Made by a program: the position numbers and the translations under genes. Under the pieces are notes generated by a model. It was not told the DNA's origin. It saw only the letters and a program-made list of their open reading frames with translations, and did not search any database. A stretch of 36,381 nt of DNA from Candidatus Woesearchaeota archaeon (GTDB taxonomy: Archaea; Nanobdellota; Nanobdellia; Woesearchaeales; GW2011-AR9). Below, one piece after another: positions 5,658 to 32,441 of this stretch. The stretch lies in NCBI GenBank assembly GCA_016179955.1, contig JACPCD010000038.1, positions 1-36,381 on the forward strand, read 5' to 3'. Position 1 is the first letter of the stretch. Each line of letters begins with the position of its first letter.

Positions 5658-8474
5658 ATGACTCTCGATTGGGTTGCAATCCAGGAAAAATGGCAAAAAG
5701 CCTGGGCAAAGGCAGGATTGGGAAACGCAACACCCAGCAAAAATAAAGAAAAGTTCATGATCATCTTTGCCTATCCTGGCATTTCCGGGTATCCGCACGT
5801 GGGCCATATGCGGGGCTATTCGTATACCGATGCCATCGCCCGCTATGAACGGTTACAAGGCAAGGAAGTGCTCTTTCCCGTAGGAACTCATGCATCGGGC
5901 AACCAGGCAATTTCTTTTGCCATGAAAGTCCGGAACAAGGACCAGGAGTGGCTCGAGTACCTGCGCCGGAACGGCTGTCCGGAGAAGAAGCTGAAAGAGT
6001 TAACCACTCCCGAAAAAATTGTGGAGTATTTCAACACTGTCTTCGTGGAAGACTATTGGAAGAAATTTGGCTTCCTCTGCGATTGGGAGCGCTTTACCTG
6101 TACCATCTATCCTGACTACGAGAAATTTATCCAGTGGCAATTCAAAAAGCTGCAGGCAAAGAATTTATTGGTCCAGAAGCCATATTTTGCCACGGCCTGC
6201 GTGAATTGCGGTCCAGTCGCAGTGGACCCGAGTGAAACGGACATTTCCAAAGGCGGCAATGCCGAAAAGAATGAATATACTTTGTTGAAGTTTAAGCAGG
6301 GCAATGATTTTCTGGTCGCTGCGACGTTACGGCCAGAAACGATATACGGCCAGACAAATTTGTGGATAAATCCACGGGCACGCTATGTACGGGTCAACGT
6401 TGAAAAAGAACAGTGGATCATGAGCCGGGAAGCTGCAGAAAAATTGGGTTATCAAAAAGATGATGTAACGATCCAAGAAGATGTGGACAGCGCATCATTG
6501 ATTGGAAAAATGGTAGAGGCACCCGGCATTAACCGAAACATTCCTATCTTGCCTGCATCATTCTGCGATCCCAATGTTGGATCGGGCATCGTCACGAGTG
6601 TTCCTGGCGATGCGCCGTATGATTATGTTGCCTTGCGGCAATTGCAGCAGAATGAGAAAGAATGCCAGAAGTATGGGTTAGAACCACTTGCCATTAAAGA
6701 AATTAAACTTATTCCCATTATCCAATCCTCAGGCTTTGGCGACTTTCCGGCCCGGGAAATTGTGGAGAAGCTGCACATCAAGACTCTTGACGATCCTAAA
6801 CTCGGGGAAGCGACGGCAGACGTTTACAAAGCTGGATTCCATACTGGCGTGATGCGGGAGAACTGCGGCAAGTACGCGGGGAAAAGGGTGGAAGAAGCTA
6901 AAGAATTAGTGAAAGCAGAGCTGCTGCAGGAAGGTACAGCAGATATTTTCCATGACTTGAGTGAGGAAGTCATCTGCCGCTGTGGGGGAAAAGTCATTAT
7001 CAAACGTATTGACGACCAATGGTTTATCAAGTATTCTGATCCGGAACTTACGGAACGGAGCAAGGAACAAGCACGAGAGATGACGATTTTTCCACAAGAA
7101 TATGCCGAACACCTTCCGGCAGTCTTAGATTGGTTTAGCGATAGAGCCTGCGCTCGGTTAGGCAACTGGCTGGGAAGCAAGTTTCCGTTTGATCCGAAAT
7201 GGACCATTGAGCCCATCAGTGATTCGACGTTATATCCAGCATATTACATCGTTTCCAAGTTCGTTAACAATAAAATGTTGAGCGTACAAGATCTTACGGA
7301 AGAGTTTTTTGATTATGTGTTCCTGGGCCGCGGGCAGGGTACCAGAGAGTGGAAGAGTGTTCGTGAAGAATTCCAGTATTTCTATCCGCTGGACCTCAAT
7401 CTCGGAGGAAAAGAACATCAGACAGTGCATTTTCCGGTGTTCCTGATGAATCACGTCGCTATCCTACCTGAAGAGAAGTGGCCCCAAGGAATTTTCGTGA
7501 ACTGGTGGGTTACCGGGAAAGGAAATAAGATATCCAAGAGCAAAGGGGGCGCTGAACCTATACCCCAGGCAATGGCCAAGTATGGCGTCGATGCCATGCG
7601 ACTGTACTATGCTCATATTGGCAGCCCTCACGTTGACGTCGTCTGGGATGAAGAGACAGTCTTAAATTACAAGCTGGCGCTGGAGCGCATTCATTCCCTG
7701 GTGGAAGAGCTGCGAGAACGGAAAGAGCGCAAAAAACAGATTGATGAGTGGATTATCTCCCGGATGCATCAGCATCTGCGGAGCATCAATCACGCCATGG
7801 AACAGTACCAGCTGCGGGAACTGGCGTCCATTACTTATTTTACCATGTATGATGACGTGCGGTGGTATCTCCGCCGTGGAGGCGGTCATCAGAAAACCGG
7901 GGAGGATGTTCTTTCCCTCTGGCTGCGGCTGATGAATCCAATTACCCCTCATCTGAGCGAAGAACTGAATCAGTCAAAAGAATTAGTTTCCGCTTCATCC
8001 TGGCCGGAGCTTGACGAAAAACGTATTATCCTCTCGGCGGATGCCGGGGAAGATCTTATCCGGAAAACTGTGGGAGGAATGCGGAATGTTCTGCGGTTGT
8101 CTGCTTTAGAAAAGCCGAAACAGTTTACGGTGTTCATTGCCGAGCAATGGAAGTATGAATTGTTCACGATTCTTTCTAAAGAGCTGAAGGTAACTCATCA
8201 GATGGGGGAAATTATGCGGAAGGTGCTGGAAGTGGAAGAGCTGAAGATGAAAGGGAAAGAAATCGCGGCGATCGTGACTGCGGTGGTTAAGGATCCGGCC
8301 CGGCTGCCGTCATTGCTACTGTCTCAGGAGCAGGAGTTAGCGGTGATGAAAGATGCAGCAACCTTTCTGGAGCAGGAATTTGGGTGCAAGATTAAGGTGG
8401 CGTTGGCAGAAAAAAGCAAGCAGCCTAAAGCGCAAGCGGCGATGCCGGGGAAAGTAGGGGTGTTGGTGGAATGA
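5658..8474 (+). CDS. leuS: leucyl-tRNA synthetase, archaeal/eukaryotic type
   Basis: HVGHMRGYSYTDAIARYERLQGKEVLFPVGTHASGNQ (HIGH region), editing-domain sequence LRPETIYGQTNLW, GNKISKSKG (KMSKS), full length 938 aa. Confidence 0.95.
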   Translation: MTLDWVAIQEKWQKAWAKAGLGNATPSKNKEKFMIIFAYPGISGYPHVGHMRGYSYTDAIARYERLQGKEVLFPVGTHASGNQAISFAMKVRNKDQEWLEYLRRNGCPEKKLKELTTPEKIVEYFNTVFVEDYWKKFGFLCDWERFTCTIYPDYEKFIQWQFKKLQAKNLLVQKPYFATACVNCGPVAVDPSETDISKGGNAEKNEYTLLKFKQGNDFLVAATLRPETIYGQTNLWINPRARYVRVNVEKEQWIMSREAAEKLGYQKDDVTIQEDVDSASLIGKMVEAPGINRNIPILPASFCDPNVGSGIVTSVPGDAPYDYVALRQLQQNEKECQKYGLEPLAIKEIKLIPIIQSSGFGDFPAREIVEKLHIKTLDDPKLGEATADVYKAGFHTGVMRENCGKYAGKRVEEAKELVKAELLQEGTADIFHDLSEEVICRCGGKVIIKRIDDQWFIKYSDPELTERSKEQAREMTIFPQEYAEHLPAVLDWFSDRACARLGNWLGSKFPFDPKWTIEPISDSTLYPAYYIVSKFVNNKMLSVQDLTEEFFDYVFLGRGQGTREWKSVREEFQYFYPLDLNLGGKEHQTVHFPVFLMNHVAILPEEKWPQGIFVNWWVTGKGNKISKSKGGAEPIPQAMAKYGVDAMRLYYAHIGSPHVDVVWDEETVLNYKLALERIHSLVEELRERKERKKQIDEWIISRMHQHLRSINHAMEQYQLRELASITYFTMYDDVRWYLRRGGGHQKTGEDVLSLWLRLMNPITPHLSEELNQSKELVSASSWPELDEKRIILSADAGEDLIRKTVGGMRNVLRLSALEKPKQFTVFIAEQWKYELFTILSKELKVTHQMGEIMRKVLEVEELKMKGKEIAAIVTAVVKDPARLPSLLLSQEQELAVMKDAATFLEQEFGCKIKVALAEKSKQPKAQAAMPGKVGVLVE

Positions 8475-18777: not shown

Positions 18778-19049
18778 AGGGGCACACCCATCGGTCGAAC
18801 CAAACCTGCTCCATTGGTTTTACCCTGAAAGCTTCTCGGGCTTGCAACCCCCTGAACATGGAGATTACACGTTAAGGCTGCTTCCTTCCGGATCTGACCT
18901 GGTTCCGGGCAAGTCCATCCCATGGGACAAGCCGTCAGCAAAGGCATTCAGGACCAACAAAACGAAGTCGGCCCTTCCAAGGGTTTCGGCTCCGTGTGAA
19001 GTCCGTTCACGGTAACAACGCAGGACTAGCGCGCCAGCCTAGCTCTCCC
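18778..19049 (-). ncRNA. signal recognition particle RNA (7S/SRP RNA), ends approximate
   Basis: Minus strand contains CCAGGTCAGATCCGGAAGGAAGCAGCC, the universally conserved SRP helix 8 region, in a ~270-nt structured noncoding segment starting GGGAGAGCTAGG. Confidence 0.9.
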
Positions 19050-31349: not shown

Positions 31350-31453
31350 AGGCCACTGAAAATAAGTTTTTATTTATAAACTTTTTTGTTTTGGCTTAGA
31401 GTGTGTTTAAATAGTAACATTTTTATAACTGCCCTGATATGGCTAACCAAAAT

Positions 31454-31653
31454 GGCGGTGTAGCTTAGCCTGGTTTATAGCGCCAGACTCATATAGATAT
31501 GAGTAATGAGGGGAAACCCAATGAAAAATATCTGGCGCAATCTGGAAGTCGCGTGTTCAAAAATAAGGGGCTTCGCCCCTTATCAACCCCAGACCCTGCG
31601 GGGAATATATCACCCTCGACCTGGGGGGAACATTGAAAATCACGCCACCGCCA
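31454..31653 (+). tRNA. tRNA with CAU anticodon (elongator Met or Ile2), with two predicted introns 31494-31539 and 31562-31639
   Basis: Spliced product GGCGGTG TA GCTTAGCCTGGTTTATAGC G CCAGA CTCATAA TCTGG AAGTC GCGTG TTCAAAT CACGC CACCGCC A gives acceptor, anticodon and T stems with full pairing. T-tract follows. Confidence 0.85.
31563..31605 (+). repeat. copy 1 of a short repeat: ATAAGGGGCTTCGCCCCTTATCAACCCCAGACCCTGCGGGGAA
   Basis: Inside the T-loop intron. Starts with a perfect 8-bp hairpin. Confidence 0.8.
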
Positions 31654-31674
31654 CTTTTTTATAAAGGTAAAACA

Positions 31675-32348: not shown

Positions 32349-32391
32349 ATAAGTGGCCTTGCCCCTTATCAACCCCAAACCCTGCGGGAGG
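32349..32391 (+). repeat. copy 2: ATAAGTGGCCTTGCCCCTTATCAACCCCAAACCCTGCGGGAGG
   Basis: Close match to copy 1. An extra half unit ATAAGTGGCTTTGTCC precedes it at 32333. Confidence 0.8.
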
Positions 32392-32413
32392 GAAAAAGAG
32401 AGGGTTTCACCAT

Positions 32414-32441
32414 TTATCAACCCCAAGCCCTACGGGGAGAA
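32414..32441 (+). repeat. copy 3 (partial): TTATCAACCCCAAGCCCTACGGGGAGAA
   Basis: Close match to the second half of copies 1 and 2. Confidence 0.75.

Follow-up and report, generated by a model that had tools for sequence, protein, structure and literature searches.

A tRNA(CAU) gene of a Woesearchaeota-type DPANN archaeon with predicted introns in the anticodon loop and in the T-loop, the latter carrying a dispersed hairpin element

The window (the whole stretch of DNA that was analysed, 36,381 nucleotides) carries at 31454–31653 on the forward strand what is very probably a working tRNA(CAU) gene, distinct from that of the initiator, of a Woesearchaeota-type DPANN archaeon. Comparison of sequences predicts two introns in this gene, one in the anticodon loop (31494–31539) and one in the T-loop at position 59/60 (31562–31639), the body of the latter corresponding to a hairpin element that is dispersed in the host genome. 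The preliminary description had proposed a tRNA(CAU) with two introns, one of them in the T-loop and enclosed by near-ideal bulge-helix-bulge (BHB) geometry, in a genome of DPANN/euryarchaeal-like appearance, and every coordinate of that proposal holds.

Exon 1 (31454–31493, +) comprises the 5' strand of the acceptor stem, the D-arm and the anticodon arm up to position 37; exon 2 (31540–31561, +) contains the 3' strand of the anticodon stem, the variable loop, the 5' strand of the T-stem and T54–A59; and exon 3 (31640–31653, +) supplies T60, the 3' strands of the T-stem and of the acceptor stem (GGCGGTG/CACCGCC) and A73 at 31653. Intron 1 (46 nt, +), of the canonical type, would separate positions 37 and 38, and intron 2 (78 nt, +), a non-canonical one, positions 59 and 60. 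A TATA-box-like sequence, TTTTTATAA, lies 26–34 nt 5' of the tRNA (31420–31428, +), and a T-run (31655–31660, +) is a likely transcription stop. When the three exons were spliced in silico, the resulting 76-nt molecule was recognised by ARAGORN as tRNA-Met(cat), in agreement with the earlier claim that the spliced tRNA folds. The unspliced gene in the raw window was missed both by ARAGORN and by Rfam at the gathering score, the only nearby tRNA that they called being a Ser tRNA; below the gathering score, Rfam gave it 17.8 bits (E = 0.38). No Rfam family was found for either intron (up to E = 1). The window also contains an archaeal SRP RNA gene (18778–19049, −).

Established tRNA identity rules provide the basis for telling the initiator from other tRNA(CAU) species. 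The tRNA encoded at 31454–31653 has a G1–C72 pair and a CCAGA/TCTGG anticodon stem, which speak against an initiator role; it would be elongator Met or Ile2. The initiator tRNA of the host genome, with A1–U72 and a GGG/CCC anticodon stem, is encoded by a separate gene (contig C33, around 8156). The end of another host contig (C27:47199–47259, locus L049) matches the window from 31610 onwards at ∼95% identity, the 3' exon of the tRNA being identical and the GST gene included; this copy is probably a strain variant within the metagenome-assembled genome (MAG).

In the T-arm, GCGTG (31551–31555) pairs with CACGC (31641–31645) to form the T-stem, on top of which the exon strand UUCA (positions 54–57; 31556–31559, +) and the intron strand UGAA (31634–31637, +) form a central helix of 4 bp between two 3-nt bulges at the exon–intron junctions, AAA (31560–31562) and AAU (31638–31640). 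Pair probabilities computed with RNAfold for the precursor that retains the T-loop intron are 0.85–0.94 in the central helix and ∼0.97 in the T-stem, and covariation in relatives (see below) involves the same helix. The inner helix (h') across the intron consists of two A-U pairs, as weak as had been described, and there is, instead, a 9-bp hairpin whose start directly follows the 5' bulge. In the mechanism that we envisage, T54–R57 of the precursor would pair with a YGAA near the 3' end of the intron to build the BHB atop the T-stem, EndA would cleave each 3-nt bulge between its second and third bases, and the exons would be joined by RtcB. The predicted junction, 31561/31640, reads GCGTGTTCAAA followed by TCACGC.

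Orthologs of this tRNA(CAU), kept in ∼20 genera mostly of the same family, bear out these junctions. In two genera (G007 and G023) the T-arm and the acceptor strand are intronless, reading GCGTGTTCAAATCACGCCACCGCCA, and in a third (G056) the anticodon arm is intronless, reading GCGCCAGACTCATAATCTGG; each sequence is identical to the predicted splice product. Filled and empty T-loops are thus seen between genera, the comparison being one at the level of genus and not of strain. In five other genera (G011, G022, G031, G040 and G044) unrelated introns interrupt the T-loop of the ortholog, and for this reason the site appears to have gained and lost introns repeatedly. The ortholog in G040 has C in place of T54 and a G at the opposite intron base (CTCA..TGAG), a compensatory pair.

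The anticodon intron (31494–31539) is conserved and structured within the family: ∼18 genera keep the motif TTGAGC-RATGAGGC..GCCRATGA together with a stem that displays compensatory changes, and the intron resembles an RNA of the C/D or k-turn type. A copy of the anticodon-stem strand is present at its 3' end in the window and in the orthologs of G007 and G040. Reading the window's sequence by eye, we saw no obvious canonical BHB at this intron, because the 5' exon stem pairs with the copy inside the intron.

The T-loop intron of tRNA(CAU) is one of many in the host genome. The pattern GTTCRA(31-91)YGAAADTC had 19 matches there and four in a reversed control, which, together with the identity of the intronless orthologs to the splice products, argues against chance. 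A tighter GG..CC pattern had 157 matches (a checked sum) in 51 genomes of the family compared with 26 (summed by hand) in the control; in 30 genomes outside the order and within the class the excess was small (22 vs 10 in the control, both hand sums). Among ∼32 tRNA genes found in the host genome, ∼18 have T-loop introns and ∼14 do not, a count that comes from targeted searches and from stretches of the genome and is a lower bound in a MAG that is 81% complete. With anticodons read by eye, the affected tRNAs are Arg (TCG, GCG, CCT and TCT), Thr (TGT and GGT), Ala (TGC, CGC and GGC), Asn, Val GAC, Gly, Cys, Leu CAG, Ile GAT and CAU, plus two without assigned identity. The cleanest case is Ala(TGC), which has a single intron, in the T-loop, and whose spliced form is a perfect 72-nt tRNA. 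By eye, three of the host loci (L050, L056 and L058, on contigs C5, C25 and C31) have apparent D-loop introns besides those in the T-loop, and some of them also an anticodon intron, which makes two or three introns per gene. One further candidate, L015, was discarded, because a downstream duplicate of the tRNA 3' end had produced the match.

BHB splicing requires that base 57 pair with the intron base that faces it. Throughout the order, A57 faces T in 50 cases and C in two, and G57 faces C in 17 and T in six (Fisher p = 4.7e-10). In the host genome alone this pairing is obeyed by seven loci with A57 (broken by none) and by seven with G57 (broken by one; p = 0.0014). When 30 loci were checked in full, the A-T or G-C rule held in all 17 with a fully paired T-stem and was broken in six of the 13 matches with a broken T-stem. 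Target-site duplication alone was rejected as an explanation of the TTCGA..CGAA likeness, since tRNAs with TTCAA carry the complement TGAA and no repeat.

These data bear on whether the T-loop insert might be a palindromic repeat that landed in the tRNA(CAU) gene and broke it. The insert is indeed a dispersed repeat, found also outside tRNAs, but the compensatory R57–Y pairing, the intact exons and stems and the constant geometry of the junctions make a pseudogene highly improbable. The same condition affects at least 16 different tRNAs, apparent sole copies among them, and T-loop introns occur order-wide; with ∼18 such genes in the host genome, too many would have to be dead for all of them to be pseudogenes. 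We therefore regard the gene as a working, intron-containing one.

One element is common to 14 T-loop introns of the host genome: a hairpin that adjoins the 5' bulge, followed by UUAUCAACC. In the tRNA(CAU) gene, repeat counts and alignment place it at 31563–31590 (+), with the hairpin strands ATAAGGGGC and GCCCCTTAT and then CAACCCC; a second small hairpin, CCC-TGC-GGG, read from the sequence and the alignment, follows at 31594–31602 (+). Where introns contain the element, its hairpin follows the 3-nt 5' bulge without a gap and probably takes the place of the inner helix. TAAG-N9-CCYTTATCAAYC occurs in 22 exact copies in the host genome and in none in the reversed control. Thirteen of these copies are in T-loops (a close variant occupies a fourteenth, that of Thr TGT). 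Another, at the end of a contig, duplicates one of the T-loop copies, and yet another, flanked by GGG-CTCA and TGAG-AG-A-CCC, belongs to the anticodon intron of the initiator tRNA. Introns that share the element thus occur in unrelated tRNA genes of one genome, 14 in the T-loop and one in the anticodon loop. The initiator gene (C33, ∼8156–8330, L180) has a further insertion adjoining the T-stem, near position 53/54. The remaining copies lie downstream of tRNAs (three on C18, others on C42 and C25) or have no tRNA nearby; C18:1–300 and C42:10815 were singled out as regions on contigs with such downstream copies. Tandem pairs in intergenic DNA with no tRNA nearby are found at C31:5597 in the host genome and, with one of the two copies degenerate, at 32349–32438 (+) in the window. 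Copies outside T-loops in related genomes, among them those of families f6 and f10, are for the most part oriented antisense to a tRNA and flanked by direct repeats of its 3' end. G366, a genome from a different order of the class, carries four T-loop introns of the element type, near-identical apart from the central-helix base, which follows R57.

There are several ways to account for this distribution. The element might not be mobile at all, being instead a conserved RNA motif selected for a function in splicing or in the excised, possibly circular, intron. Its TAAGG...CCTTATCAACC core is near-invariant across genera, in other families and in another order of the class, and the second hairpin, which varies, is mostly retained; yet only four of the order's 362 genomes contain the element with the stringent T-loop pattern, the host has further T-loop introns that lack it, and it occurs also outside tRNAs and in antisense arrays, and on balance we consider a purely functional motif unlikely, if worth keeping in mind. 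Alternatively, the introns might have been left by tRNA-targeting integrases that used the T-loop and the tRNA 3' end as attachment sites, the element representing the end of a plasmid or virus. Such an origin would suit the antisense copies that are flanked by direct repeats of the tRNA 3' end and has a precedent in Caldiarchaeum, where intron gain is linked to integration (PMC3293823). It seems improbable, however, in view of units of only tens of bp, sense T-loop copies that lack a duplication, the lack of an integrase in the short stretches read and the lack of any match in viral contigs in two exact-pattern scans of IMG/VR; a viral origin of the element accordingly found nothing in its favour in those scans.

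For the T-loop intron of tRNA(CAU), our preferred reading is that its body is one copy of the dispersed element, spread by transposition or recombination as we infer. A broader scheme may be suggested, tentatively and with real reservations: a hairpin element of tens of bp may use the palindromic B-box as its target and so move from one tRNA gene to another in this DPANN class. A sense copy would yield a splice-ready T-loop or anticodon intron, equipped with an inner helix of its own and processed by an alpha-only EndA that has no loop, and an antisense copy would give rise to arrays of duplicated tRNA 3' ends. Movement of this kind, if real, would represent tRNA intron gain that is still in progress.

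The host genome encodes one alpha-type EndA, a full-length match to the Methanocaldococcus jannaschii enzyme (1A79) with the Tyr-His-Lys triad, and the alignment places the N- and C-terminal domains in a single subunit, as in the alpha4 type. Relative to 1A79, neither this protein nor the EndA of 12 relatives from other genera has a CSL/ASL insertion, unlike the Sulfolobus-type chain 2cv8, which has ∼10 extra residues at that site. No second EndA subunit was detected in the host genome, and nearly all relatives have a single strong PF01974 match each. The suggestion in the preliminary description that a T-loop intron points to a broad-specificity endonuclease thus finds no support in a single alpha-type EndA without the Crenarchaea- or ARMAN-specific loop. 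In the literature, non-canonical introns are associated with loop-bearing enzymes of the (alpha-beta)2 or epsilon2 type (PMC6379350; PMC4033280; PMC12397907), and alpha4 EndA is described as narrow in specificity (PMC6379350; PMC4033280); therefore, cleavage of the T-loop by the host EndA is not certain. Either the BHB geometry in the T-loop would suffice for an alpha4-like enzyme or the host EndA would be broader than thought.

An RtcB gene is also present. In this gene, 30 nt that include in-frame stop(s) are inserted between H and W of the MPDGH/WGYGFPIG motif; the insertion occupies one and the same place in three genera (L183, G000:C23:38693–40039; L204 in G011; L210 in G013) and is lacking in other relatives. 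Read by eye as an in-frame BHB intron, it has a GGTC/GACC central helix, 3-nt bulges ATT and AGT and an inner helix that differs among the three genera, yet is paired in each; a frame-breaking BHB candidate from an automatic scan was wrong, and the in-frame one was preferred. The rtcB mRNA itself thus seems to need splicing and ligation.

Among the open-access journal papers searched, we found none on T-loop or other non-canonical tRNA introns in Woesearchaeota or DPANN archaea. Relative to the literature searched, what is new is the abundance of T-loop introns in the order, the shared element and the type of endonuclease; the 59/60 position itself is known. These findings add a large DPANN order to the archaea with a heavy load of non-canonical tRNA introns and challenge the view that a broad-specificity loop in the endonuclease is required for such introns. 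Many of these tRNAs are missed by ARAGORN and Rfam, so reports of 'missing tRNAs' and estimates of DPANN completeness may be biased. The shared hairpin element points to overlooked, possibly mobile, tRNA introns that are abundant in this lineage and, with the antisense arrays, offers a concrete system for the study of the origin and spread of tRNA introns.

Non-canonical introns at 59/60 are known from Crenarchaeota and Nanoarchaeota (PMC4090602), and those newly found with tRNAscan-SE 2.0 were mostly from Crenarchaeota and Thaumarchaeota (PMC8450103). The introns described here resemble the former in position, in BHB geometry and in the presence of several introns per gene, and differ from them in belonging to Woesearchaeota-type DPANN archaea with a loop-less alpha-type EndA and in the occurrence of one hairpin element in most T-loop introns. 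The transposition of introns described for tRNAs of Thermoproteales (Fujishima et al., 2010, as cited in PMC4090602 and PMC4033280) is similar in that like introns in different tRNAs imply spread, whereas the element described here is also present outside introns, in antisense copies that lie 3' of tRNAs and are bracketed by duplicates of the tRNA 3' end. The gain of an intron in tRNA-Thr of Caldiarchaeum (PMC3293823) likewise links a disrupted tRNA to duplicates of tRNA fragments and to integration at tRNA genes, but the insertion there was larger and had a putative recombinase gene; the units that we describe measure tens of bp and are often tandem, and no enzyme gene was seen with them. Finally, the host EndA is collinear with the alpha4 enzyme of M. 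jannaschii (1A79) over the whole structured part, shares its catalytic residues and like it has no CSL/ASL, but is distinguished by an extra charged N-terminal extension and by its residence in a genome rich in non-canonical introns.
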